Shown here piece by piece: positions 1-51,939 of a stretch of 51,939 nt of DNA. Within the stretch, counting starts at the first letter, position 1. Each line of letters starts with the position of its first letter. The position numbers and the translations under genes were made by a program. The DNA lies in the IMG/VR virus record IMGVR_UViG_3300009603_000019, positions 1 to 51,939 of that record, one strand, 5' to 3'. The notes beneath the pieces are model-generated. The model ran no database searches, had not been told where the DNA came from, and was given only the letters and a program-made list of their open reading frames with translations. The stretch comes from a virus.

Positions 1-217
1 AAGAAGTAGGATCTACGTCTGGATCTACAGCCTTAGGAATTAAAGAAGTAGGATCTACGTCTGGATCTACAGCCTTAGGAATTAAAGAAGTGGGATCTAC
101 ATCTGGATCTACGGCCTTGGGAATTAAAGAAGTGGGATCTACATCTGGATCTACGGCCTTGGGAATTAAAGAAGTGGGATCTACATCCCTTCTCGTAGGA
201 ATTAAAGAAGTAGGATC
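1..217. repeat. 42-bp coding tandem repeat, left part
   Basis: Four 42-bp units plus a partial unit at the right. On the minus strand each unit encodes the 14-residue repeat VDPTSLIPKAVDPD. Units differ at a few positions (ACGTC/ACATC, CAGCC/CGGCC), so they form at least two subfamilies. The same repeat fills the last 200 bases of the window, and this most likely caused the assembly to break here. Confidence 0.95.
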
Positions 218-2368
218 TAGACCTCCTACGTCCGTCGGCATTAGAAATCCACTCTGTGCTGCCGACCACGGATGAGTAATACTCTCGGCTTGGCCCATCA
301 TCATACCCGGTGCAGCCCTAAGTCCAACACTTCCCTTTAAATCCCATGCCATGCGATTGTGGTATTCAAAATCTTTTTCGCCATAAATCCTAGGATTTGC
401 TTCTCTCCATTCAGCCACCTGTTGCTGAACCTCTTCGGAAGAACCCTCAAAGCCTGTCAACTCCTCTGGGTCTGCCTCCACACCACTGATCCGATTCATT
501 TCATCAGTGAAACCCTCATCTCCATACATTTCTTGAGCATTTCTCAACGCCGTCTTTTGAGCCTCAGTGAGACTCAACGGCAAAGCATTGATCTTTTCAT
601 CAAGGGCATTCCTTACCCTCATCTTACTCATATGATCTATACGAGCTTGAACCTCATTTCTTTGTACATCACTCAATTGAATTGATTCAAGCTCATATTC
701 TTCAATGTCCTCATTGTTCATAATACGACCCATGAGATCATTAAAATTTGTTTGCTGTAGCGTTACTCTATCAGCATCAGCTTGCACCCTTTCTTGCTCT
801 CTGCTATACGTAGTAAACCGAGCCATTAAATCAGATCGTTGAGAATCGTTTAACTGCATATTCCCTATTTCATACTCAGATACGGCATCCCCACCCATAA
901 AACGAGTGATCAATTCATTATAGTTTTTTACTTCTAGTGCTTCTCTTTCTTTTCTTGTTGCTGTCTCATTTTCTATTCTGAGTCTTTCTGCTTCAGCCTC
1001 TTCCCAATCATCCAATTGTCGTCGTACGTCAGCGCGTTGGGCATCACTCATATCTATATCATTGAGTTCATTCTCTGATATACCGCCCCCATCTCCACCC
1101 ATCAATCTACCAATCAATTCATTATAATTAACATTGCGAGTAGCGTCCCTTCGCTCTGTTTCCTTGCTTGTGATTAGGGCAACCAAGCTATCTTTTTGTG
1201 ACTGACTTAAATTTGATGAAAGTATTTCTGATCGTGTAGGAGCTTCATCGGCATTGATTCGATCTGTATAAGACTGATTCAATTCCAATTGCGTTGCCGC
1301 TCTTCGTTCTGCTTCAATCTCTTCGTTTCTTGTATTAAGAGTTTCCGTCAATTTAGCTTTCTGAGCATCATTAAGATTAACATTCAAACCTATGTCATAC
1401 GCAGTAGCTCTCCCATCTTTTATCGCATTAAGAATTTTATCATAGGCATACGGATCTCGTACAAATGATGACTCTGGGACTTCCTCTTCTCCCGTGGTGT
1501 CAGTTTCTTCAACAACGTCGCTATAGTCCTCACCTTCCGCAAAAGATATTGCATACTCTGAATTGGGATCTTCCATCCAACGCTGTATAGCTTTAGCCAC
1601 TTCAGGATTTTGCATATACAACGCATTAAATCCTATATCTGCATTAGGATCATCTAGAAGAATCCCTTTTAGTCTTCCAAGCTCAGAAGCGTCCGACTGC
1701 TCCTTCGCACTAGCCGCTTCCGACAACCTAGTAGCTTCGGCAGCCTTCTCAGCCCTGCTTGTAACACCCTCATTGTAAAGTGCCGTTAATTCCGCTGTGG
1801 CATTATCACGAAGGTTTAATTCTGCGATAGCGTCTATATCCAACATGCCAGATCGCGCACGTTGCTTAGTATCTTCATATATATGGGGAGGTTGTACTAC
1901 CTTTGACTTATCGACAGTTCTAGCTACTTCTTCATCTGATAATCGATCAAAGGCTTGTCCTCTTGGAATCTCTGCTGTAGGAGGAGCAGTCCCTAAGGCT
2001 GAAGCCATACGGGCGTTATATTCTGCATTAGTCTCGCCGTACGTTGGCCTGTTTATTCTTTTCCATTCGGTTTCGGGATCTTGCGTTGCAGAAGGAATTA
2101 AAGACGTAGGATCATCCCTATCATCTGCTCTAGGGACATTTACTCTAGTAGGAACTTGTGTCATTCTGCCCCCTCCGCTATAAGGGGACTGTACATAAGA
2201 AGTGGGAGTATCCTTATTCTCTCTATCCATCCTTTCCCTAGCCAACCTCTTCTTTTTCTCTTCTTCAGTTTCAAAAGACGCAGAGGTAACTCCATTTTCG
2301 CCGGGAAGGGTAGATCTTGCAGACGCATCCCCGATATAATTTTTTATTGATCTTATTCCCCATGCCAT
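1..2368 (-). CDS. Giant putative internal virion protein, N-terminal part (runs off left edge)
   Basis: Open from ATG at 2368 (AAGGGG ribosome site 8-9 bases upstream) to base 1 with no stop; 789 codons are visible. The other part is at 48024..51939. No enzymatic domain is recognised. Residues about 330-590 hold five diverged repeats of 50-70 residues with a NYNELI-R-MGGD stretch, then an SE-E-I-x-LSD-QR stretch. A DPTSLIP motif near residue 87 returns in the tandem repeat at the C-terminal end of this part. A W-[KR]-x-x-N-x-[YF]...N-R-A motif occurs near residues 97 and 652 and again in the other part. The long, acidic, helix-rich sequence downstream of fibre and membrane genes fits an ejection or internal virion protein; this is inferred from position and size. 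Confidence 0.8.
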   Translation of the reverse strand, partial: MAWGIRSIKNYIGDASARSTLPGENGVTSASFETEEEKKKRLARERMDRENKDTPTSYVQSPYSGGGRMTQVPTRVNVPRADDRDDPTSLIPSATQDPETEWKRINRPTYGETNAEYNARMASALGTAPPTAEIPRGQAFDRLSDEEVARTVDKSKVVQPPHIYEDTKQRARSGMLDIDAIAELNLRDNATAELTALYNEGVTSRAEKAAEATRLSEAASAKEQSDASELGRLKGILLDDPNADIGFNALYMQNPEVAKAIQRWMEDPNSEYAISFAEGEDYSDVVEETDTTGEEEVPESSFVRDPYAYDKILNAIKDGRATAYDIGLNVNLNDAQKAKLTETLNTRNEEIEAERRAATQLELNQSYTDRINADEAPTRSEILSSNLSQSQKDSLVALITSKETERRDATRNVNYNELIGRLMGGDGGGISENELNDIDMSDAQRADVRRQLDDWEEAEAERLRIENETATRKEREALEVKNYNELITRFMGGDAVSEYEIGNMQLNDSQRSDLMARFTTYSREQERVQADADRVTLQQTNFNDLMGRIMNNEDIEEYELESIQLSDVQRNEVQARIDHMSKMRVRNALDEKINALPLSLTEAQKTALRNAQEMYGDEGFTDEMNRISGVEADPEELTGFEGSSEEVQQQVAEWREANPRIYGEKDFEYHNRMAWDLKGSVGLRAAPGMMMGQAESITHPWSAAQSGFLMPTDVGGLDPTSLIPTRRDVDPTSLIPKAVDPDVDPTSLIPKAVDPDVDPTSLIPKAVDPDVDPTSLIPKAVDPDVDPTS

Positions 2369-2849: not shown

Positions 2850-3263
2850 CTATTCTGCTCCGTAATAACTCCGCGCTACCCACGCAAAAGTTGTCGTTGC
2901 GAACCAGCATACGGCCCCATAAAAAATCTCAGACTCCATCAAAAACGGAGGGAGAGGCGATCCATAGTGTTGCATGGCTTGCCACGTGAGGGTCACGCAT
3001 CCAATGGCGGCACCCGACCAGCCAGCCGTAGATTTCAGCTTTTCTGACGCCGCTTGCTTACGTGAAATAACATCCATCTTGCGGACAAGCTGACGTTTCT
3101 CTTTTTTTAATTCTTCTGCCTCAAGACGTCTATCCCGCGTTATAGACTCCATTGCGTGTAGATTACGCTGAAGTTCTTTTTTCTCCGCGAGGAGCCTGTC
3201 TACTTCGACCCTGCACTCCGCAAAGGTGGCAATATCTTTGCTCGATTCTGGGCGTGGCATCAC
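2850..3263 (-). CDS. Coiled-coil protein with C-terminal membrane segments, 137 aa
   Basis: The N-terminal half (about residues 15-75) is a long charged coiled coil (RLLAEKKELQRNL, RRLEAEELKKEKRQL). The C-terminal half has two hydrophobic segments (about 80-98 and 108-132) around a proline-rich turn. Start ATG at 3263 overlaps the stop of the upstream MscS-like gene by four bases (ATGA), so translation is coupled. A cytoplasmic or periplasmic coiled coil tethered to the membrane, within a run of membrane genes, suggests a lysis or infection-stage membrane function. It lacks the usual spanin layout of an N-terminal anchor followed by a coiled coil. Confidence 0.65.
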   Translation of the reverse strand: MMPRPESSKDIATFAECRVEVDRLLAEKKELQRNLHAMESITRDRRLEAEELKKEKRQLVRKMDVISRKQAASEKLKSTAGWSGAAIGCVTLTWQAMQHYGSPLPPFLMESEIFYGAVCWFATTTFAWVARSYYGAE

Positions 3264-3676
3264 TCATCTTTCCTCTTGCCATTTGGTCCTTCCGACCATC
3301 GCCAGTAATCCTCAGACTCCAGATTTTCCAGCGGCTTCTCAATCCGCATATCTTTGAGTGCTGTATTCGGGACTGCCAACTTGGTTCCACCAACCGCAAT
3401 GCCATCCCGATAACTAGTCAAATAAAAAACTGTTTTAGTAAGTCCCACTCTTGCTATTCTACCGGGACGCCCGTCAACGATGACTACATCGTCTTCGTCG
3501 TAATCGGTGCCAAAAAATACTTGTAACCCCGCTACGCCATTTTCGATACTCGACTTGAACAGCAGCAGCGCAAACGCGATTACCGCAATCCAAGAATATT
3601 CGCTTACAAGATTCGCAACGCCACTTTGCTCACCAAATTTTGTAAGTGCCGCAGTTGCGTCAGTATCCACGTCCAT
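3260..3676 (-). CDS. MscS-like mini-channel protein, 138 aa
   Basis: One hydrophobic helix at about residues 28-46 runs into an S-x-x-N-x-x-A-G-L segment and then a compact beta-type domain at about 50-115: DYDEDDVVIVDG, GRIARVG, a threonine-rich strand and VPNTALKD. This order (pore helix, gD-x-V-x-v-x-G, G-x-V-x-x-I/V-G, PN-x-x-L) is the signature of the pore helix and middle beta domain of MscS mechanosensitive channels. Bacterial MscS has three helices and a further alpha/beta domain; here only the core remains. In a run of membrane genes it could form a pore used for lysis or DNA entry, which is inference. Confidence 0.65.
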   Translation of the reverse strand: MDVDTDATAALTKFGEQSGVANLVSEYSWIAVIAFALLLFKSSIENGVAGLQVFFGTDYDEDDVVIVDGRPGRIARVGLTKTVFYLTSYRDGIAVGGTKLAVPNTALKDMRIEKPLENLESEDYWRWSEGPNGKRKDE

Positions 3677-3776
3677 CTTTTCGACGCTGGACAGCGGCCC
3701 AAATCACAAGCGCACTCATCCACAGAATGGCCGATCCCAGCATGAAAATTATCACCGCTTCGCAGGTGTGAGTCAT
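3660..3776 (-). CDS. Single-span membrane peptide, 38 aa
   Basis: A short ORF starting ATG at 3776 and ending TGA at 3660, overlapping the start of the MscS-like gene by 17 bases. Almost the whole peptide is one hydrophobic helix (EAVIIFMLGSAILWMSALV) followed by a basic, charged tail (QRRKDGRGY). GGTGGA lies about 9 bases before the start. The overlap and the well-formed membrane helix with a positive-inside tail argue that it is real. It may be an accessory to the adjacent channel or lysis proteins. Confidence 0.5.
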   Translation of the reverse strand: MTHTCEAVIIFMLGSAILWMSALVIWAAVQRRKDGRGY

Positions 3777-3842
3777 GGCCGCATCATCCACCGAAGAAGG
3801 CGAATAAATGGGCGTAGAAGACGGTCAAGAATTGGAGTAAGC

Positions 3843-3980
3843 CTAATAACCCTTAGTCCGTGCTTTAGCTTTGGGTTTTTTGGCTTGCTTCATTGGCTTG
3901 CCCGTGCGTTTGGCTTCCTTCTTAGCCGCCGCTACGCCTTTTTTACTGTAGCTATAAGTCTTGCTTCCTACTTTAGGCAT
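3843..3980 (-). CDS. Lysine-rich MPKVGSK-type small protein, 45 aa
   Basis: Starts MPKVGSKTYSYSKKGVAAAK and is rich in Lys, Arg and Ala to the end (KARTKGY). GGAG lies 9 bases upstream. A clear paralogue of 42 residues lies at 19394..19522 and shares MPKVGSK, the Y-S-x-K-G step and the AK-x-x-AK run. Small proteins beginning MPKVG-K are widespread among tailed phages and are usually unnamed. The charge suggests nucleic-acid binding or a virion-internal basic peptide (inference). Confidence 0.7.
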   Translation of the reverse strand: MPKVGSKTYSYSKKGVAAAKKEAKRTGKPMKQAKKPKAKARTKGY

Positions 3981-4057: not shown

Positions 4058-4259
4058 CGTCAGTTACCTTGCCGTTAGTCGATGTGAGGGCCGTAAGAAT
4101 ATCCCGCTGCCCAACGCATCGCTGGTAGATCGGGTCGTTGGCCGCGAGGACGTTTAAACGCTCTTGCATCTGAGCCTCGACTATCGCCAGTTGCTGCTCT
4201 GGCGTCGTCGTCTGGGGCTGAGACTCGGTGACTTCTTCTTCGATTGCTTCGGTTTCCAT
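4050..4259 (-). CDS. Small acidic protein, 69 aa
   Basis: Starts by TAATG overlap with the fibre gene stop (ATG at 4259). The first 20 residues are acidic and Thr/Gln-rich (EAIEEEVTESQPQTTT). A helical segment PEQQLAIVEAQMQERLNVL follows, then a short tail with one Cys. There is no signal or membrane segment. Its direct coupling to the fibre suggests a fibre-associated chaperone or accessory protein, but no family is recognised. Confidence 0.65.
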   Translation of the reverse strand: METEAIEEEVTESQPQTTTPEQQLAIVEAQMQERLNVLAANDPIYQRCVGQRDILTALTSTNGKVTDDA

Positions 4260-7200
4260 TATACGGCCTCCAATACGGCAACTTTAGCGGACAATTCTTG
4301 GACTGCGGCAACTAAATACATATGCAAATCATGCGGCGTATAAGTTTTTAGATCAGTCATCAGTGTCTCAGATATTTCCTCAGTTCTGACATCGCCAACG
4401 GCCTTGTCATTAGGTATGTCGTTATCACCGGCCCGATACAGTACGGCAGGGGTGGTCTTGACCAGATCGCCGCCCACTGATACGGCATCGGGAAATACTG
4501 TTGCGTACTCTTCTGCAATGAAGGAGTTATACGTTTTTGTGCCGTCGATCTCGTCGTGAGCCGATAGATATTGGTCCGTATACCGAAAACTTACTGGGCG
4601 CAAACTATTGATTTTCGCCAATGCTCCCGAAATCGTCTGAACACTGGTTTTGATGCGACTGTCTGAGGTATCTGTCCATGCGGTACCGGTACTCAATCCC
4701 GCAGTACCCGTGACTGTAATAGCGGGTGACGCGGATGCGTTTATCCGCATCCGCTCTACTGAGCTATACACACCCGCTGGTACTGTTCTAAACGCTAAAT
4801 ACGTCGGTAGATTGTCGTCAGACCAATCAGCAGCCGCAAACGCTTTAAATTCAGCCCCATAATAAAAATAACCATTATCGGGCCAAGCTCCTGCAAAGCC
4901 AATCTGCCCTAAGCCGTCACCCGATTCTGGGTACGCCAAAGTACCCACGGTAGCACTGCGTGATTTTTGTAAGATTAGTGAGCATGGATTAGTGTCAGCA
5001 CTATAAAGAGTCATTATTGCTGACGGCCACGCTGTAGTCGCTAAGTCGAGCTTCGCGGCTGAGACTCCCGAATTATTAGTTCTGGCGGTAGTATTTATAA
5101 GAAACCCTCCACTACCTGATACCGCAGGTAGCAAGATGGCATTGGAATTATCATAGTAGAGATCCGCATCGCCACCCGTGCCGAGCGTGACTTTTGCATT
5201 ATCGACAAACGTCATATCGCCCGATATAGTCGAGGTGCTGGATAGTGTCATCGACCCCGTCACTGCCAGCGTCGAGCCGTCGAAGGTCAGGTTGGCCTCG
5301 ACATCAGCTACAGAAGAGCTTGCGTAAGTGGCTACACCATTCGCCGTACTACCATTAAAGGAGATGCCGCTACTGGGCAATGCCTCCCAAGCTGGTGGTA
5401 GATTAGCACCTGCGGAAGTTAAGACTTGACCGTCAGACCCATAATTTGCACCTCCAATACCTATCTCGCCTTGACTGGTAAACCTAAACTTCTCCGTAGC
5501 CGCTTCAGAATGTCCAGTATAAAAAATTATATCTGTCGCATTAGAGCTAGCACTAAAAGTGCTTTGTGCAACAGCTTGGATAGAGGCCGCTACCGCAATT
5601 GCATCTGTTCCTGTCTCATGCGGAGCTTGAAAGTCTATTTTCCCCAAAACATCATTGGCATTAATGTCTGTCAAAGAAGTGGCCAACAAAAGTTTGCCCG
5701 TGCTAGTCGTTGCATCTGCTGAAGCACCCATAATACGAAGCTGATCGGCACTCTCGTCCCACTCCATGTAAGCTCCTGCAGAATCTCCAAAAAACTTTAC
5801 ATCTTTTCCTGTGCCATCAACTCCTACGGTAACCGTTCCAGTAAAAGTCTTATTGGCAGTGAAAGTCTGCACTACACCAAGGTGAGCAGTATCGTCGTCA
5901 AGATACGCAGAGGCCACTTTCGTGCCTTGCCAAGTGCCTGTACCAATTGTACCTACGGTAGCAATACTACTACTGCCAGCTATAGGGCCATATATAGATC
6001 CTATAGCCGTATCGCCAATCGTTATAGCATCCGCTTCAAGAGTTCCATCTACGTCAATATTACCTGCAAGGTCTATGTGTCCCGGTATCGTGACTATACT
6101 TGCACTGCCATTGCCTATAGTCACATCCACTTCGTCTTCAGCACTGCCATCTTCAATAAGGAGTCCTTGATTTAGCTCTGCATCATGTGAAGCTACAGAA
6201 AACTTTATTTGACCTCCTTCCTGTCCAGCAGTAGCTGTCTCAACAATACCTTCAATCTTAGCAAACTCTTCGTGGGTAGCTTCCCCTGCATCTGTCCCAT
6301 AGAAGGAAATAGTACCCATGACATCACTGTCGTCACCACTAGCAGAATCTTTTGAGAATTGAATAATTCCAGCCGTAGCACCAGCATGGGTATTTTTAAG
6401 CTCTATCTTAGGAAGATTTGCGGAAGTCGAAGTGGCAGTAAGGATATCACTGGCAAAGGTCAAGGTGGATGCAACAATGGCAGAAGAGCTACTGCCATAA
6501 GTAACCATACCATCAGCAGTAGACCCACTAAAAGAAATGCCACCTCCTACTCCAGATGCCTCCCAAGCAGGAACGGCTCCTGCTCCTGTTCCCGTTAGCA
6601 CATATCCATCTGCACCAGAAGCAAGTCGAGCAAGAAAACCAGAGCTATCACGATAGTAGAGATCTCCAGTAGCATCGGTTGATCCATTTATTGCAATGCC
6701 AGCATTGGCAAAGACCAAGTCATCTGCCGATTCGTCCCAAGTAAGACTGGATGATGCGGTATCTCCATAGAAGATTACATCCTTACCAGTTCCATCTACA
6801 CCTACGGTGACTGTCCCTGTGAATGTTTTATCACCAGTAAATGTTTGAGTAGTTGAAAGATGTGCCGTATCCGCATCGAGATAAGCAGAGGCTACTGCTG
6901 TTCCTTGCCATGTTCCCGTTCCTATAGTCCCCACAGTAGCGATATTAGTACCGCCAACGCTATGACTAGCGAAGTAAGTGCTAACCGTATCTACATTGGT
7001 CATACGCATCGTACCTGCGTCATTGACCAACAACCCATCACCAGAAGCTACCGCAGTCGTCCCCCTAGACGTTCCACCATCTATTAGATTCAATTCAGCG
7101 GTAGTAACCGTAGCCCCATCCAGTATTTCCAGTTCAGCTTCGGTGATTACAGCAGATCCAATAGTAAAACCTGTTGCCGTCACCACCCCACTGCTGGTAA

Positions 7201-7897
7201 TAGCTCCAGACCCTATAGTGCCTATAGTGGCAATATTTTTTGAAGCGTCTAAGACCACAGCTTTTGAAGCTGCCGCAGTACCGGCAGTTATACCGTCCAA
7301 CATCTCTAACTCAGCTTCACTTATTGCCGCACTACCTACTGTCAAAGCACCAAAAACACCTGTTCCCGTAACGGTAAGGCCTCCACCAATAGTAGCATTG
7401 GTTCCAATAGCCACCGTGGTAGTTGTCATCGTTATAGCTGTAGAGTTAACTACAAGGGGAGTTACTGAAGAAGCATTAGCTATCGTGGAAAAACGCCACT
7501 CCGAATCCTCTGAAGAGGCTGAGGCATCCGTCATCTTTAGGTCTACATAACCTATAGCCGTAGCGGCACCACCCGCATCATCTGCGGTAAAAGTTAATCT
7601 CAATCCATCATTATTTGCAGGAGTTCCAGACGATGGATTGATCTCAAACTTAGCTACCTCACGCAATCCTCCAGCCGCCGCAGACGTTGTGCTGAATGTT
7701 TTTAGACCCGTAATAGTCTGAGCAATAGATTTTCCTACGATACCATCACTACCTGAAGTATCGACATTGGCTTCATCTATATTGGTTGCCTCAAGGAATG
7801 TCCTAATATTAGTAATCCAATCCTTGAGAGGAGCCGCCTTGATTTCTGCTCCAGCTACAGGTAGCGTTGAGTCACTAGGAACTGTAATCGTTGCCAT
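4259..7897 (-). CDS. Tail fibre/spike with C-terminal S74 intramolecular chaperone, 1212 aa
   Basis: A Gly/Ala/Ser/Thr-rich fibre. Many repeats are visible: AELEMLDG and AELEILDG turns, TIGTGTWQGT, TVTVGVDGTGKDV and GISF-GSTA-G. A module of about 55 residues (GTIGTGTWQGT to GKDV-F-GD) occurs twice, near residues 315-375 and 645-705. The C-terminal 130 residues form a peptidase S74 domain: TSDSRIKTSV carries the Ser1080-Lys1083 dyad that cleaves itself off after trimer folding. The domain ends in a coiled coil (LVAAVQELSAKVAVLEAV). It should form a trimeric receptor-binding fibre. The gene starts in a TAATG overlap with the upstream tail gene. Confidence 0.93.
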   Translation of the reverse strand: MATITVPSDSTLPVAGAEIKAAPLKDWITNIRTFLEATNIDEANVDTSGSDGIVGKSIAQTITGLKTFSTTSAAAGGLREVAKFEINPSSGTPANNDGLRLTFTADDAGGAATAIGYVDLKMTDASASSEDSEWRFSTIANASSVTPLVVNSTAITMTTTTVAIGTNATIGGGLTVTGTGVFGALTVGSAAISEAELEMLDGITAGTAAASKAVVLDASKNIATIGTIGSGAITSSGVVTATGFTIGSAVITEAELEILDGATVTTAELNLIDGGTSRGTTAVASGDGLLVNDAGTMRMTNVDTVSTYFASHSVGGTNIATVGTIGTGTWQGTAVASAYLDADTAHLSTTQTFTGDKTFTGTVTVGVDGTGKDVIFYGDTASSSLTWDESADDLVFANAGIAINGSTDATGDLYYRDSSGFLARLASGADGYVLTGTGAGAVPAWEASGVGGGISFSGSTADGMVTYGSSSSAIVASTLTFASDILTATSTSANLPKIELKNTHAGATAGIIQFSKDSASGDDSDVMGTISFYGTDAGEATHEEFAKIEGIVETATAGQEGGQIKFSVASHDAELNQGLLIEDGSAEDEVDVTIGNGSASIVTIPGHIDLAGNIDVDGTLEADAITIGDTAIGSIYGPIAGSSSIATVGTIGTGTWQGTKVASAYLDDDTAHLGVVQTFTANKTFTGTVTVGVDGTGKDVKFFGDSAGAYMEWDESADQLRIMGASADATTSTGKLLLATSLTDINANDVLGKIDFQAPHETGTDAIAVAASIQAVAQSTFSASSNATDIIFYTGHSEAATEKFRFTSQGEIGIGGANYGSDGQVLTSAGANLPPAWEALPSSGISFNGSTANGVATYASSSVADVEANLTFDGSTLAVTGSMTLSSTSTISGDMTFVDNAKVTLGTGGDADLYYDNSNAILLPAVSGSGGFLINTTARTNNSGVSAAKLDLATTAWPSAIMTLYSADTNPCSLILQKSRSATVGTLAYPESGDGLGQIGFAGAWPDNGYFYYGAEFKAFAAADWSDDNLPTYLAFRTVPAGVYSSVERMRINASASPAITVTGTAGLSTGTAWTDTSDSRIKTSVQTISGALAKINSLRPVSFRYTDQYLSAHDEIDGTKTYNSFIAEEYATVFPDAVSVGGDLVKTTPAVLYRAGDNDIPNDKAVGDVRTEEISETLMTDLKTYTPHDLHMYLVAAVQELSAKVAVLEAV

Positions 7898-9462
7898 TAT
7901 AATACCCCTTGACCACTTATAGAATATTCCACTTGGTAGCCCATTAATTCTGCTGGATTAGAACCCGTTATTTCTAGTTGTATATTTTCTGCTGTTCTAT
8001 TTATCGAAAAAAGAGCCTTATTAGCTCTTTCATCTGGAAATAAAAGGCCTGAATCGTATTCATAATCATCATCGTATACGTAATCGGTTCCTATTGTAAG
8101 TGTCTTTTCCTTGGTACCCCTAACCCCTTGATCGCGTTTTAAGGTGACTCCTATGGTCGATAAGACGCCCGTATTCTTGTAGTATATAATAATAGTCTTT
8201 ATAATCTTAGATGTGCCGGGAGATCCCAAATCATTAGGTGCCGTTTCATATGTATAACTGTAATTGGTGGAATCGTCATCGGTTCCTGTATTGCCCTTAT
8301 ATACATAACCCGTACTATAAGATCCTAAGAAATCAAACTCAGAGTCACTGACAAAAAAATTACTTATAACATTGAGAGAGGCCGTATATGATTCGATCTG
8401 TATTTCATTAGTCTCCCAATCCCATACAAGAACTTGATCATGTCCAGTGCTATTGGACGTAGAAGACATAAGAACTCTTACCTGATGATCTTTCTCTCTT
8501 ACAGTAGATACAGCATATTGAAGCCTTGCCAAATTAAACTTAGATTGAAAGTCGATCTCTCTCGTCACAACCCTGTATTGCATGTCAGGTGTTATAACAA
8601 AAGCTCCTTCTGTGGCTATCCCAAAGATAAATTCTGGACGAACGATAATACTCATCTTTGAAACTGGAGAAAAGCCCCTCATTGTATTGCCGGGAACATA
8701 TTCCAATGCCCCTACATGATATACAATGTCTCCTATATACGCCCCGTCTTTCTTGAAGATAAAGACCTTATCCCACGCAGAAGCACCAGCTACTATATCG
8801 GTACCTCCAGCATCAACCTCAAACCTGTTGTTATCTAAGACCCTGTCTATATCTACACCAAAAGTATCCGTATTTACGTCACACCAGTAAAGTCTTGTCG
8901 GATACTTGGTGCTGCTTATCGTCGGAGCTATGAATAGTAGTACGTTCTTATGAACTATAAGATCTTCACAGGTAGCTAGGACTACAGGCGCAGTAGTCAT
9001 AGCAACCGCACTATTAGACGTGTTCCCATCCCACGTCCAAATGTTATTTGTTCCATTTACCGCTATTAACTTGCTGTCTAAATAGGCAAATCTATGTCTT
9101 CCCTCTGCTCCTGCATTCAGCGTCACTGAGCCAGTCAGATCTGTCCTTGTAGTTCCGTTGTCGGCAAATATTTTTGTAGTCGTAGTATAGACATTACGCA
9201 ACCCCTGAGTGCCTATAAGCTGATGCCTGAACCCAGTTAGTGCAGGAGATCCACTTATCTGACTGGTATTGTATTTTGCATACCCGCTTCTTCGTCTTGC
9301 CATTCTTTGTTCGGACAAGTCTATATTGTCCATTACAATAGCAGATTCTGGACCCAAATCTGGAGACGGGTAGTTGTGGACATCCTTAAGACCCCTGAAC
9401 ATAAAAATTTGGGATCGCTGAAGATCAGGAAATACACGGGGTTCTGGTAATGCTACAGTCAT
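7897..9462 (-). CDS. P22 gp10-like tail hub / head-closure protein, 521 aa
   Basis: Begins with a proline-rich arm (EPRVFPDLQRSQIFMFRGL) and a segment DNIDLSEQRMARRRSGYAK, then repeated W/Y/G strand units (IWTWDGNT, RLYWCDV, VFIFKKDGAYIGD, VLVWDWETN) consistent with a beta-propeller-like fold. Length and the neighbouring gp4-like gene fit the packaged-DNA stabilisation/tail hub proteins of P22-like phages (P22 gp10 is about 470 residues). It should sit on the portal ring below the head and hold the fibre, whose gene follows immediately. The assignment rests on fold pattern and order, not a decisive motif. Confidence 0.65.
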   Translation of the reverse strand: MTVALPEPRVFPDLQRSQIFMFRGLKDVHNYPSPDLGPESAIVMDNIDLSEQRMARRRSGYAKYNTSQISGSPALTGFRHQLIGTQGLRNVYTTTTKIFADNGTTRTDLTGSVTLNAGAEGRHRFAYLDSKLIAVNGTNNIWTWDGNTSNSAVAMTTAPVVLATCEDLIVHKNVLLFIAPTISSTKYPTRLYWCDVNTDTFGVDIDRVLDNNRFEVDAGGTDIVAGASAWDKVFIFKKDGAYIGDIVYHVGALEYVPGNTMRGFSPVSKMSIIVRPEFIFGIATEGAFVITPDMQYRVVTREIDFQSKFNLARLQYAVSTVREKDHQVRVLMSSTSNSTGHDQVLVWDWETNEIQIESYTASLNVISNFFVSDSEFDFLGSYSTGYVYKGNTGTDDDSTNYSYTYETAPNDLGSPGTSKIIKTIIIYYKNTGVLSTIGVTLKRDQGVRGTKEKTLTIGTDYVYDDDYEYDSGLLFPDERANKALFSINRTAENIQLEITGSNPAELMGYQVEYSISGQGVL

Positions 9463-12021: not shown

Positions 12022-12969
12022 CTATGCCGATAGCTTAATACCAGCATTTGTAATGATTTTATTCATACGAAGTTCATATGTATGAAACTTACGACACTTC
12101 TCATGTCCAGATTTAGCAATGGATTCTCTCTCTACTGGATTATCCAATGCCCATTGAATCTTATCTTTCATTTCGGCCTTATTCGTATAGCCTAAAAAGT
12201 CTTTTCCCTCCTCAAATCCAAGCTCTTCTATTCCGTCTACCGTAGTATTTGTCAACAAGCATGTTCCAGTAGATAAGATCTCAAAAAATCGCATATTCAA
12301 ATCATTTTTAATGCTGACATTAAACCCTACTCTAGACCGTATGTAACGTACGGACATGTCTTCAAAGAAACAACTAAAAGAAAACCAGCTATTGGGAAAC
12401 TCCTTGAACAAAGAATCCAAATAATCAATTCTGTTATTTTGATCTTCTTCGTAGTCTCTCATAAAATGACCTACAAAAGAAACGTCCCATTCTTTTTGTA
12501 ATGTCCACGTCCCCAAATGTGATTCTTTGTTTGGGTGAACCATCATTTCACTGAGGCTTGGATGGGCCATAGTATTACAAGCCAATGGCAACCATGTAGC
12601 TGATTCTATACCATCTGCCCTCATTCGCTCTGCACCCTCTTTTTGAGCGCAATAAACGTACTTGAATTGTTTGGCCTTTTCCTTTCTAAAGTCATACCCC
12701 ATATGCGTATCAATAGAATAGTAGGCACTATTTTCGGGAGCGGTCCAATTCAAGTCATCTCTGCCATCATCTATATGAATATAAAACTCAGCAGGAGGCA
12801 ATTTTTTTGAATCATCATCTGGTGGTCTATACCTGCATACGCCCTCTCCCCACCCCAATTGATATTTCACAGCATTAAAGCATAGGGTGGGAGTCCCATT
12901 ATTTCTTATATCACTATTATAAACAAAAGCTAAGCGAGGATGTCCTTCAATTGCTTGTATGCTTTTCAT
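12022..12969 (-). CDS. Glycosyltransferase, GT4/CgeB-like, 315 aa
   Basis: The C-terminal half carries the GT-B donor-binding signature: DVSFVGHFMRDYE, then LNMRFFEILSTGTCLLTN (E-x-x-x-x-G in place of the usual E-x-x-A-x-G), then IEELGFEEGKDFLGY and a terminal helix with the loop EKCRKFHTYELRM. This matches CgeB-type or glycosyl-transferases-group-1 proteins that take a nucleotide-sugar donor. The N-terminal half is an acceptor-side domain with no signal peptide. The start overlaps the upstream GT2 gene by 23 bases. Position among morphogenesis genes suggests sugar decoration of virion proteins, but phage DNA or host surface glycans are alternatives. Confidence 0.8.
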   Translation of the reverse strand: MKSIQAIEGHPRLAFVYNSDIRNNGTPTLCFNAVKYQLGWGEGVCRYRPPDDDSKKLPPAEFYIHIDDGRDDLNWTAPENSAYYSIDTHMGYDFRKEKAKQFKYVYCAQKEGAERMRADGIESATWLPLACNTMAHPSLSEMMVHPNKESHLGTWTLQKEWDVSFVGHFMRDYEEDQNNRIDYLDSLFKEFPNSWFSFSCFFEDMSVRYIRSRVGFNVSIKNDLNMRFFEILSTGTCLLTNTTVDGIEELGFEEGKDFLGYTNKAEMKDKIQWALDNPVERESIAKSGHEKCRKFHTYELRMNKIITNAGIKLSA

Positions 12970-13750
12970 ACAAATCCTCTTGGTGGCTAAGTCCTTTTTT
13001 CAACCTATAATTTTTCCACGTATGTCCCGTACAAGTCACCCATTTCTTTAGTCCATGCTTTTTAATAATTGCATTGTTAGTTATCTCTTGATGTATGCCA
13101 GAATCCCAATAGCCCTCAAAAACTCGCTTCCCTGTCTGCTGTCCTATATGATGCAAGTATGATGTCCTATTGGCGATTAATTTAAGACCTCGATCACGCA
13201 ATCGTATCGACAAGTCCAGATCGTCTCCTCCCGGCAAAGCCTCGTCCAATCCCCCTATTTCACGAAAAAGTTTTGTCTTTACAACCAAACACATTCCTAT
13301 TAAACAAGTAGTTTCTACTATAGATGGTGTTTCTACGTTGAAAAGATTTTGATTTCCCGATACAAAATTACTACATGGACCCACTGCGCCCACTAAGGGA
13401 TCTTCAAATACATCTATCAAATTCTTCCAAAAGTCTTTTGATTCTGGTATAAAGACTGTGTCGTCATTCATCATACAAAAATATTCTGACTGCGCTGCGT
13501 GAATATGATGAAGACCTATATTGATAGACCCCATCCACTTTAAATTCGATCCCGGTTGGACTATCGTTATTGCATCTTCTGGCAAATCCTGTATGATATT
13601 TTGAATGCTCTTATAGGATTCTATGGCCGACTCATTATCGATCACCAAGATTTTATAATTGTAATCGGTATGTTCAAATAAAGAGTGAAGACACCAATCC
13701 AATTGTTGGTGATTATTATACGTGGGTATGCATATAGATAGAAATGCCAT
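12947..13750 (-). CDS. Glycosyltransferase family 2, 267 aa
   Basis: Classic GT-A fold: nucleotide-binding start LSICIPTYNNHQQLDWCLHS (residues 4-23), VIDNES at 36-41, metal-binding NDDT at 95-98 (D-x-D-like), and a later GGDDLDLSIRLRDRG acidic motif that holds the catalytic base. It ends with basic, helical residues and has no membrane helix, so it acts in the cytoplasm. Its start touches the previous gene's stop and its end overlaps the next glycosyltransferase, making a compact three-enzyme cassette that probably builds one glycan in steps. Confidence 0.85.
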   Translation of the reverse strand: MAFLSICIPTYNNHQQLDWCLHSLFEHTDYNYKILVIDNESAIESYKSIQNIIQDLPEDAITIVQPGSNLKWMGSINIGLHHIHAAQSEYFCMMNDDTVFIPESKDFWKNLIDVFEDPLVGAVGPCSNFVSGNQNLFNVETPSIVETTCLIGMCLVVKTKLFREIGGLDEALPGGDDLDLSIRLRDRGLKLIANRTSYLHHIGQQTGKRVFEGYWDSGIHQEITNNAIIKKHGLKKWVTCTGHTWKNYRLKKGLSHQEDLYEKHTSN

Positions 13751-37929: not shown

Positions 37930-38226
37930 ATGTCATCAAAAAGAAGTTATTCTCAGCATAAAAGAAACGTAGGAGCATTAGACCCATACGCTAGGTTGAG
38001 TGGTGCAGTGTATATGGATGCTTTTAACACACTGAGGAAAGCAGTAGACCTCCTCGACATGGATGAATTAAACAAAGAAGCACAAGGCAGGAAGGATAAC
38101 GCCTTAACCTTTTTATATTCTGATAATCCTTTTAGAAAGTATTTGGAAATCAGGGGTCACGAGATGCCGATTCAAAAGGGCATAGATGGGATTATTTTAA
38201 AGAGGGAGGATCGATATGAGTCGTGA
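37930..38226 (+). CDS. Small protein, 98 aa
   Basis: AGGAG before ATG 37930. SKRSYSQHKRNVGALDPYARLSGAVYMDAFNTLRKAVDLL, then an acidic helix and FLYSDNPFRKYLEIRGHEMPIQKGIDGII. No membrane segment. It overlaps the amidase by 11 bases. A GAAACCAG...CTGGTTTC inverted repeat lies in the gap before it (37861-37898). Unrecognised. Confidence 0.6.
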   Translation: MSSKRSYSQHKRNVGALDPYARLSGAVYMDAFNTLRKAVDLLDMDELNKEAQGRKDNALTFLYSDNPFRKYLEIRGHEMPIQKGIDGIILKREDRYES

Positions 38227-38953
38227 TCGTGTAGATGAAGTCTTTCAAGCTTCAGACAAGTACTCTATGGTGATGCTGGATACGCCTAACAAGAAAGGAA
38301 GGAGAAGGCTGGATCAAATAACTCTTGGCGTTATTCACTACACGGGATCGTCCAGCTTAGAAGGCACCCTTGCTTGGTTCCAAGACCCCGAAGCTAAGGT
38401 GTCCGCCCACTATGTCATCGCTGCGGATGGTGCTGTGGTGCAGTTTGGAGACTTAGAAGATGTGTTGTGGCACGCTGGTCGTTCAGAATGGCTGGGCAGG
38501 AAGTGGTGCAACAAGTACAGTATCGGATATGAAGTGGTCTGCGGCCCTAAAGGACGCTTCACCCCATCGCAGATAACGTCATTGCATTACCTGCTAAGGA
38601 TGAACATTCAATCTACAGGAATGACGGCTGTCGTAGGACATGAACACATAAGTCCCGGCAGGAAAATAGATCCCGGTAACTGTGTCAACTGGCACACCGA
38701 TTTTAAATTAAACATAATAGATCCTGACAATCAGTTGGAGTATTTCTCCAACCAGCGAATCGATCATACTGATGTCATAGAAAGGTATTTAAAGGAGGAT
38801 CAAAGTCTGGCATCCAGCAGAAACATTCCTATTGAACACGCCAAAGAATTAAATGAGATGAATCGTGCTAAAGAGATGACCGATGGAAGAGGGGGGTCAG
38901 ACTTCAGTTGGTTGCCCCGCCTCCTCAAGGCTCTCTTTCAACGCAGCGTATAA
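38216..38953 (+). CDS. N-acetylmuramoyl-L-alanine amidase (endolysin), 245 aa
   Basis: Amidase_2/PGRP fold: GVIHYTGSSS (Zn ligand H41), SAHYVIAADGAVVQFG (H65), LWHAGRS (H86), YSIGYEVV (catalytic-site E106), and VVGHEHISPGRKIDPG (H142, K150 and Zn ligand D152). The H, H, D ligand set replaces the Cys used in T7 lysozyme and matches AmiD-type enzymes. It cuts the bond between MurNAc and L-Ala in peptidoglycan. There is no signal peptide, so a holin or channel is needed; the membrane proteins at 2.6-3.8 kb would serve. GGGAGGA lies before ATG 38216. Residues after 165 are helical with no recognised wall-binding domain. Confidence 0.9.
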   Translation: MSRDRVDEVFQASDKYSMVMLDTPNKKGRRRLDQITLGVIHYTGSSSLEGTLAWFQDPEAKVSAHYVIAADGAVVQFGDLEDVLWHAGRSEWLGRKWCNKYSIGYEVVCGPKGRFTPSQITSLHYLLRMNIQSTGMTAVVGHEHISPGRKIDPGNCVNWHTDFKLNIIDPDNQLEYFSNQRIDHTDVIERYLKEDQSLASSRNIPIEHAKELNEMNRAKEMTDGRGGSDFSWLPRLLKALFQRSV

Positions 38954-39238
38954 CTCTACGAAGCGACCCCACGGTAACACAACCGTGGGGTCTGCATTAT
39001 TCCTTTTGAGAATTAAACAATCATTATCCCCCAACCATTCCTCGATCTGCTTAAACCCCCCTCCGTTCTTCCTCGCTTTAACCTCCGCTATCCACCCTCC
39101 GAAGCTTATATCACCCGTGTAAGAGCCTCCTGCGGCCCCTGAGAGGGGAACGCGCTCAGCCCCTATCCCTGCCTCGTTCAGCCTATGCACAATCTCACGC
39201 TCTACGCGCAAACCCTTGTTGCGCTCACTCCGTCCCAA
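38897..39238 (-). CDS. Holliday-junction resolvase-like nuclease, 113 aa
   Basis: PD-(D/E)XK pattern: RNKGLRVEREIVHRL (E13/E15), RVPLSGAAGGSYTGDI (D43), WIAEVKARKNGGGF (E52, K54), and IEEWLGDNDCLILKRN. Such small Hjc/RecU-like nucleases resolve branched DNA before packaging. It overlaps the polyvalent gene by 14 bases and the convergent amidase gene by 57. Confidence 0.8.
   Translation of the reverse strand: MGRSERNKGLRVEREIVHRLNEAGIGAERVPLSGAAGGSYTGDISFGGWIAEVKARKNGGGFKQIEEWLGDNDCLILKRNNADPTVVLPWGRFVELYAALKESLEEAGQPTEV
38965..38992. terminator. Bidirectional-type hairpin at the convergent gene ends
   Basis: GACCCCACGG, TAACACAA loop, CCGTGGGGTC. Perfect 10-bp stem 11 bases after the amidase stop, then ATTATTCCTTTT. 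It lies inside the resolvase-like gene, in the codons for DPTVVLPWG, so it is both a coding and a terminator-like element. Confidence 0.65.
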
Positions 39239-51000: not shown

Positions 51001-51939
51001 TCCGCATTAGTCGTAACGACTTCCTGTTTTACCATTTTTCCTGCTGGAGGCGCACCCGACCCTCCAGCATTCTTGAATACCGTATACGCCTCTGTAGGAG
51101 TAGCCCCCTTTTCCAATGCCTGATGATATGCTTCCTCAGGAGACACCCTCATCTGATCGAAAATATCAAACTTGTCAAACAAAGCATTTACTGCAATCAT
51201 AGGATCAAGCTCAGTGGCAGTAACTGTACTGCCATCTCGTGCTTTTACCTCTAACTCTTTTCTTTCTACAAAGGTTAAAGGCCTGACCCGTGTTCCTTGA
51301 AAATGAGCAAAATAACCTCTCCCTATATCTGCTACCGTATTGAGAAGAGTAGAAGAATCCACATGCATATTATTGCCATCCAACCTAGCTTGAACCAAAC
51401 TGACTATTTGTTCTTCTGTCAAGGTGCCAGCCATATTATCAAACACATCATTAATCACATCACTTAAGGCTTCTGGCTCAATAAGTTGCTTGCCATCATA
51501 AAGGGCTATATGATCTTCCGTCGCCTTTGTCTGGTCATTCCTTAAGACCTCTTCTTCTAAAAGTTGTTCGTCCGTCTTGGGCGGCAGGAGCATGGCCTTT
51601 AGCCGCTCCTTCTCACCCTCTGACAGATTAGACCTTTCTATATCAAATAGAGAAGGAGCAGGTATTTCTGGATTAACTTGAGAAGCCCGTATCTTATTAG
51701 AGAAATCGTTGAATAGACCCACCCTTGCTGGATCAGCAGAAGGAATTAAAGAAGTGGGATCTACGTCTGGATCTACAGCCTTAGGAATTAAAGAAGTAGG
51801 ATCTACGTCTGGATCTACAGCCTTAGGAATTAAAGAAGTAGGATCTACATCTGGATCTACAGCCTTAGGAATTAAAGAAGTAGGATCTACATCTGGATCT
51901 ACAGCCTTAGGAATTAAAGAAGTAGGATCTATACTAGGA
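48024..51939 (-). CDS. Giant putative internal virion protein, C-terminal part
   Basis: Open to the right edge; the GTG at 51722 is not the start because the frame continues through the 42-bp repeats without a stop. Bridging to base 1 needs four bases (ATTA), which complete the GGAATTAAAG repeat step and join this frame to the gene at 2368..1. Content: DPTSLIPSADPARVG, long helical, acidic segments, an RWREANPKFDDETGDDHRNRAA motif (coordinates about 48930-49010) like those in the N-terminal part, and a Gly/Ala-rich, weakly hydrophobic end (FGAIAGNVVGAVVAAKTGNPAG). No enzymatic domain is seen. Confidence 0.8.
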   Translation of the reverse strand, partial: PSIDPTSLIPKAVDPDVDPTSLIPKAVDPDVDPTSLIPKAVDPDVDPTSLIPKAVDPDVDPTSLIPSADPARVGLFNDFSNKIRASQVNPEIPAPSLFDIERSNLSEGEKERLKAMLLPPKTDEQLLEEEVLRNDQTKATEDHIALYDGKQLIEPEALSDVINDVFDNMAGTLTEEQIVSLVQARLDGNNMHVDSSTLLNTVADIGRGYFAHFQGTRVRPLTFVERKELEVKARDGSTVTATELDPMIAVNALFDKFDIFDQMRVSPEEAYHQALEKGATPTEAYTVFKNAGGSGAPPAGKMVKQEVVTTNADGSEEVEEVEVFNLTPEYGGYGHPFYKDDVYNIASRPGESEEDFWERAEGAEWLTEFKDPDSNVTYSSVSPTESDDIVALMIETLGKNLTDSPEVANFLAGLERFQNTDAFTKSDLRKDFSTALSSALTSFGNYDLDEEKRLMREQAREDYDDQLEEANRYFLVNGLSGSGQEQRQYEDLASNYQTSLRDIDLAISQKKSEYAALQVTTLTDSFASLANIDISTDKLGLEAEDLEERGRQFDASIQAQEKESTDSLALRSRELDITQTQIYENIRQFNKTLGNKINEFAAQYGLSEMETAAMLKKMNSDIINQTRSLSAEIAQGWAGITGVAGDMEGIINLGDLGIPLSEIDAETKELPGMHLVDTDVGRTISQSFQALTGALPTLDQLELLVNGEDLTVAGIPTLESRQIATAIVMQNLDRMNKYDAISKENDLDVERFQNAKQEADRAWYIGIGDVSETFGMSNDGFRDAKYQYDKMYDPLSPDPAKNGDENPDLRYMAETKAKETYMRALGFQPGTDEYLTEQETFNSNWRQANEVFDNTFGNQLKDIAQANKFEESKFLRANEQADLQEEKYDAVWGGLMGAREEEATNIDLYDSHRILFNDTMSYINEYTDIGSSIPAHWEKVYRELATESHGRNMVEVMSGYDPEVATESDYNALISRWREANPKFDDETGDDHRNRAASNIRRYIASANAREMVPKLDSGEVLIADAGSVSTIVDSLMENPPPRLFDSIEGNYGLVDDVIKRDILEQFVAGALAEKITQSYGESFSLSHITETGILPSVEDRKSWLNAEKRDEGGWNSVRNQFADYTIFGALDLITPAGRDRIASNQDYAREFSSMTIPEFSGLKKSTDVFSEEGMRTLKAYSGRFEEIWGRPMSIAEAMNFIDDGEIDLGSTEFGMNSHRNISTRLIPENWVDNYKGEGQLEGIFALLNGGNVTPERQVARTSGWAKFGAIAGNVVGAVVAAKTGNPAGVATNAASALSTATQP
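51741..51939. repeat. 42-bp coding tandem repeat, right part
   Basis: Four full units and a variant ending TCTATACTAGGA, which would encode SIDPTSLIP after joining to the left end. Same repeat as at bases 1-217. The real copy number cannot be known from this assembly. Confidence 0.95.

Follow-up and report, generated by a model that had tools for sequence, protein, structure and literature searches.

The gene at positions 3260–3676 (minus strand) of the 51,939-nucleotide stretch of viral DNA that we analyzed (the window) belongs to an uncatalogued, widespread family of MscS-derived one-helix proteins of uncultivated phages. Its open reading frame starts with ATG and encodes an MscS-like subunit of 138 amino acids, to which we refer as the mini-channel. 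The protein is almost certainly an MscS homologue with the MscS fold, and it is likely to form a pore in a membrane. The chances that it acts in or on lysis seem to us even, and we give equal weight for and against the narrower reading in which it is a minimal MscS-family channel subunit serving as an accessory of the lysis programme. With its single helix, the family offers a test of the minimum that an MscS channel needs.

Comparison of the window copy with a 93%-identical copy in locus L001 gave a dN/dS of 0.059 (38.5 synonymous and 10.5 non-synonymous changes), indicating that the 138-amino-acid reading frame is a real, functional gene under purifying selection. A Pfam search of the window protein returned the MscS beta-domain family PF00924 as its sole match (residues 43–84, E 0.012), with a score of 16.2 bits that is below the curated cut-off of 20.2 bits. 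PF00924 matched 33 of 37 family members at E≤1, the best at E 4e-5, and the cut-off was exceeded in 5 of the 32 viral records with relatives. The Pfam families for the first and third domains of MscS matched none of the 37 members. Matches to NifZ, Selenoprotein_S and other Pfam families were rejected, being weak and at odds with the predicted fold. Searches with less information were of little use: phmmer of the single sequence against the PDB was uninformative, as was hhalign of the single sequence against one MscS (probability 9%), and the A2 profile reached MscS in the PDB at an E-value of 1.2 only.

The structure was predicted with AlphaFold2 in two runs, based on alignments of 37 and 43 natural sequences, with middling confidence (pLDDT 69.7 and 74.0; pTM 0.46 and 0.47). 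Both models contain a helix through residues 20–39, a kink at residue 40, a helix at residues 41–55, and then beta strands (64–67, 70–77, 81–90, and 93–103); the helix before the kink starts at residue 19 or, in one model, at residue 3. Based on the models and on column mapping, the single transmembrane helix (residues 20–40; 3557–3619, minus strand) is the predicted equivalent of MscS TM3a. It is followed past the kink by a TM3b-like helix (residues 41–55; 3512–3556, minus strand; ungapped alignment KSSIENGVAGLQVFF / QGSLSNLAAGVLLVM). The MscS beta-domain, as delimited by the AlphaFold2 strands and the VIA alignment, covers residues 62–104 (3365–3493, minus strand), from D62-D63-x-V to the invariant Asn of PN.

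Structural searches with these models gave uniform results. Foldseek against the PDB returned MscS-family channels as the first 47 matches in one run and as all 50 matches listed in the other, with probabilities of 0.96–1.00 and modest E-values (best 4e-4). VIA-align placed residues 21–118 onto MscS residues 92–181, comprising TM3 and the beta-domain, with Z up to 9.8; Tudor/SH3-like folds in the VIA-align lists came below the MscS block or among its last rows. An hhalign comparison of 36 phage representatives with 32 bacterial MscS cores gave a probability of 95–96% over 75 columns. Reversed profiles gave 0.1–0.2%, and 100 column shuffles gave at most 6.4%. Among 20 shuffles in which gap-rich columns had been retained, one gave a spurious 99.5%, compared to 0 of 100 above 6.4% once these columns were removed. 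We rejected chance similarity to MscS based on the dN/dS, the hhalign shuffles, and the uniform Foldseek matches. These data bear out the description in the earlier note of one helix followed by an MscS beta domain. That note had named structure prediction against MscS as a check, and the prediction produced an MscS middle domain rather than a fold without it.

The TM3-to-beta-domain fold is common to the phage family and to E. coli MscS, MscK, YnaI, plant MSL10, and Flycatcher1 (PF00924). In the AlphaFold2 models the kinked TM3a/TM3b pore helix directly precedes the beta-domain, and the beta-domain is recognized by PF00924 in the relatives, by hhalign, and by its fold; these are two of the features that mark the MscS superfamily. 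With E. coli MscS the family also shares the position of G121 (G50 in the window protein, Gly in 35 of 37 members), that of the pore residue L109 (L38, Leu in 32 of 37), and the Asn of PN, N104, which is invariant. Unlike E. coli MscS, the family does not show the two-constriction pattern of L105 and L109, because the position of L105 (A34) is Gly or Ala in 34 of 37 members. Constriction residues differ among other MscS homologues as well (PMC12334622). Most of the Gly/Ala packing known from E. coli TM3a is lost, those positions being occupied mainly by bulky residues. Of the two sequence landmarks reported in the earlier note, g-D-x-V retains its D and V (D62-D63-V-V), but an invariant Asp replaces the glycine (Gly133 of MscS); in P-N-x-x-L, the Asn holds throughout and the Leu (L107) is at least 90% conserved, but the Pro varies (P/A/Q/E/R).

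Whole segments of E. coli MscS are also missing from the phage proteins. TM1 and TM2, the sensor paddle, are absent, as there is only one hydrophobic helix, located after a short N-terminus, and tension gating may be absent with them. The C-terminal alpha/beta cage is likewise absent, the protein ending approximately 30 residues past the beta-domain. The N-terminal tail has on average 0.6 positively and 2.8 negatively charged residues, an acidic character that would fit an N-out/C-in topology.

The nearest characterized relative in size is TcMscS of Trypanosoma cruzi (PDB 9bgq), a mechanosensitive heptamer of 165 amino acids that lacks TM1 and the cage, is organized as N-helix, TM2, TM3, and beta-domain, and is the smallest characterized MscS member (PMC12334622). 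VIA-align matched it to the phage protein over 87 residues (Z 7.4, rmsd 3.4 Å). The two proteins are alike in their kinked pore helix and beta-domain and in their lack of TM1 and cage. TcMscS differs in being eukaryotic, in having an N-helix and TM2, and in its demonstrated heptamer and current, whereas the phage protein has one transmembrane helix, additionally lacks TM2, and is known from sequence and model. Since TcMscS also lacks the cage, the cage is not essential for channel function. We count the precedent of this functional miniature in favor of the channel reading, along with the conserved G121 and L109 positions and the acidic N-terminal tail. The sole published mention that we found of a similar phage protein is gp51 of Paraglaciecola Antarctic GD virus 1 (PANV1; MW805361), for which an HHpred match to MscS (6RLD, 99.7%), one doubtful transmembrane helix, and, in a single sentence, a possible role in transport were described (PMC9239159); we liken this phage protein to the family by that published description only.

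Scans of IMG/VR identified first 63 and then 352 stretches encoding relatives, from which we recovered 164 loci on contigs of 4 to 200 kb, forming 36 clusters at 85% identity. Across 43 members, no PHROG gave a match at E≤0.01, and tblastn against 50,697 phage records found no convincing relative, so that a family with a clear structural parent has gone uncatalogued. The earlier note considered such a protein unusual in a phage; this is true of catalogued phages, but the family is common in the uncultivated phages of IMG/VR. A scan covering 84,980 prokaryote species yielded two loci only. Each is on a contig that also carries phage structural genes and that had been assigned to a metagenome-assembled genome of a marine lineage (Pelagibacter, Marinimicrobia), and an origin in a cellular genome was rejected on this basis. 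The phages that carry the family are probably marine. One phage encodes two divergent members 0.36 kb apart (L034:9983-11020), the second being similar to the L007/L067 subtype.

Small genes surround the mini-channel gene in the window, all of them on the minus strand. Just upstream is a 43-amino-acid reading frame with one hydrophobic stretch (3660–3791) and no match to a Pfam or PHROG family. On the other side, overlapping the mini-channel gene by 4 bp, is the gene for a 137-amino-acid coiled-coil protein (2850–3263) with two moderately hydrophobic C-terminal stretches; these are below the Kyte-Doolittle threshold of 1.6, membrane insertion being judged by eye. Homologues of this protein adjoin the mini-channel gene in L001, L005, L011, and L012. 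Beyond it are genes for a 97-amino-acid membrane protein (2617–2910), which has one transmembrane stretch over the threshold, matches no Pfam or PHROG family, and is holin-like by size and hydrophobicity only, and for a predicted coiled-coil protein of 68 amino acids (2401–2607) with weak coiled-coil matches only, a similar-looking gene being found 3' of the mini-channel gene in L012. The small membrane proteins that the earlier note had placed nearby are thus present. Upstream and co-directional is a tail fibre gene (4259–7897, minus strand) encoding a C-terminal Peptidase_S74 chaperone (PF13884, E 9e-10; phrog_9942, tail fibre).

The endolysin of the window (38216–38953, plus strand) is an Amidase_2 enzyme (PF01510, E 8e-26). 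Neither a signal peptide nor an N-terminal transmembrane segment was found in its sequence, in agreement with the earlier note, though its gene is 35 kb from the mini-channel gene, or approximately 17 kb across the repeat-bearing ends. The shorter distance applies if the genome is circularly joined: a 42-bp tandem repeat is common to both ends of the window (1–219 and 51741–51931), pointing to a possibly complete genome that is circular or terminally redundant. The proposed link to lysis is therefore not directly visible in the window, and it is the gene neighborhoods of several other lineages that support it.

We examined the position of the gene relative to endolysin genes in 18 records, these being the records with a PF00959, PF01510, or PF05838 enzyme plus L069. 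An endolysin was present within 1.5 kb of the mini-channel gene, and indeed within 1.3 kb, in 8 of the 18, compared to an expected 1.8 (p 8e-5), and by lineage in 4 of 9 (p 0.0025); these values are to be read against a null of uniform placement that ignores phage gene modules, with lysozyme and GH108 families picked once the adjacency had come to light, non-independent records inside each lineage, and a lineage grouping of our own. A T4-type lysozyme gene was located within 1.3 kb in all seven records having PF00959, including the 200-kb contig. This recurrence of a lysis-gene neighborhood in other lineages supports the link to lysis. Counted against a role in lysis are the 9–79 kb that separate the endolysin from the mini-channel gene in the window and in lineages B, E, F2, and H, and the location of the gene between portal and (minor) head genes in L054, L073, and L080.

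The neighboring genes follow several arrangements. Group G (L058, L060, L062, L155, and others) has the mini-channel gene within a run of small genes in the order membrane protein, (in many) lipoprotein and transmembrane-plus-coiled-coil protein, mini-channel, coiled-coil-plus-transmembrane protein, and (in several) PF00959 lysozyme. At 14 loci the end of an i-spanin-like transmembrane-plus-coiled-coil gene overlaps the start of the mini-channel gene by a few bases, and the i-spanin-like gene is itself preceded by a small lipoprotein gene. The order in L069 is mini-channel, transmembrane-plus-coiled-coil gene, and an endolysin that is GH108-like by sequence inspection. In L111 (200 kb) and L129, the mini-channel gene is divergent from a holin-like/lysozyme cassette. 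At 18 loci (L093, L098, L100-L102, L104, L105, L107, L108, L110, L113, L114, L116, L117, L130, L135, L136, and L139), a gene 2–87 bp upstream encodes a protein of 319–321 amino acids with an N-terminal lipobox, a coiled coil, and later transmembrane stretches, an architecture resembling that of a unimolecular spanin. No partner gene common to all lineages was found. A membrane protein of approximately 92–114 amino acids with a conserved WEVFEYYIENWKPYGS-like motif (cluster d17) is encoded upstream of the mini-channel gene in L151-L164 and L058-L063 (for example L156:5083-5427) and has no match in Pfam or PHROGs.

Taken with the fold, these arrangements make a small inner-membrane channel that functions late in infection and tunes lysis the most likely role of the protein. 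Each subunit would contribute one pore-lining helix, equivalent to TM3a/TM3b, and a ring-forming beta-domain. Late in infection the subunits would insert into the host inner membrane with the N-terminus out and the C-terminus in, and their beta-domains would close a ring, probably a heptamer like those of MscS and TcMscS, with seven helices lining a narrow ion pore. The ring might open with rising tension, or when enough rings had assembled, and the resulting ion leak would lower the turgor or the membrane potential. Such a leak could set or sharpen the moment at which a separate holin, endolysin, and spanin act. More tentatively, and at less than an even chance, marine phages may have recruited an MscS pore module, reduced to one helix and the beta-domain, as a lysis protein, the ring reading tension or its own density and so deciding when holin, endolysin, and spanin fire. 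If so, it would also be the smallest MscS-type channel known. The family is a concrete candidate for phage sensing of turgor or membrane tension in lysis timing.

A different question is whether the mini-channel itself makes the hole through which the endolysin leaves, as a new type of holin. MscS-type pores are approximately 1–1.5 nm wide, too narrow for a folded endolysin, and holin-like genes adjoin the endolysin in L058, L111, and L075, where the mini-channel is not needed as a holin. These considerations make an endolysin exit hole unlikely and disfavor the new holin type that the earlier note had raised; the mini-channel is probably not the large-hole holin. Another idea put forward there, a tension sensor for lysis timing, may hold in the form of a tension or ion channel that tunes lysis timing.

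The main rival to a channel that tunes lysis is an osmotic safety valve, a host-physiology gene whose product would open upon tension from phage takeover or wall damage, release solutes, and delay lysis, keeping the infected cell from bursting until the virions are ready. Cellular MscS is an osmotic safety valve and works in exactly this way. The gene occupies many genomic positions, including ones far from lysis genes, as would a stand-alone gene, and the L017/L021 type carries it on the opposite strand to its structural neighbors; a 2026 survey likewise suggested that the mechanosensitive-channel genes of viruses assist the host under osmotic stress (PMC13288924). However, bacterial hosts already own MscS, which was present in all 14 control genomes and in 38 of 40 from the phylum to which G034 belongs, the loss of TM1 and TM2 removes the known tension sensor, and adjacency to lysis cassettes is recurrent in four lineages. 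We give the safety valve a modest chance.

It is unlikely that the MscS ring has become a non-conducting membrane ring or anchor, a scaffold for late spanin-like or coiled-coil membrane partners. Such a function would be consistent with the most conserved patch of the protein, which is charged (D62, D63, R73, R76, and K99) and not in the pore, with the coiled-coil membrane genes that often adjoin the mini-channel gene, and with the Gly/Ala at the L105 constriction. It is at odds with the conservation of the L109 equivalent and of the kinked pore helix, and with the lack of a shared partner gene.

We consider it slightly less likely again that the protein is an MscS-derived pinholin, whose rings would themselves trigger lysis by depolarizing the membrane at a fixed moment, like the phage 21 pinholin. 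Pinholins serve SAR endolysins, but the amidase of the window and the lysozymes and GH108-like enzyme near the mini-channel gene have no N-terminal transmembrane segment. To our knowledge, holins, including the known pinholins, have no folded cytoplasmic beta-domain, and we saw no relation in sequence or fold between the family and either the phage 21 pinholin S21-68 or canonical holins. What they have in common is being small phage membrane proteins and, as proposed here, forming an inner-membrane ring of about seven subunits at lysis; the phage 21 pinholin is heptameric with a pore of approximately 2 nm, so that subunit number and pore scale would match (PMC9636201). L069 has no other obvious holin between the mini-channel gene and the endolysin, but the holin-like genes of L058, L111, and L075 coexist with the mini-channel. 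A virion component or DNA-entry pore, the latter also raised in the earlier note, is very improbable: the gene comes after the tail fibre gene in the window and lies in the head region in L054, L073, and L080, but its position is not conserved, many loci are outside the structural module, no virion-protein family matches convincingly, and we found no support for DNA entry.

Several other genes of the window were noted. A 45-amino-acid, highly basic protein (3843–3980, minus strand) belongs to phrog_33179 (E 3e-11). The 521-amino-acid protein encoded at 7897–9462 (minus strand) matches phrog_5107, named "amidase" (E 1e-14), yet its gene has tail genes on either side and the protein matches no amidase family in Pfam, and the name may be wrong. 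Two neighboring glycosyltransferase genes (12022–13750, minus strand) lie within the virion gene block, and a 113-amino-acid reading frame at 38897–39238 (minus strand) resembles, by eye, a Holliday-junction resolvase or VRR-type nuclease.
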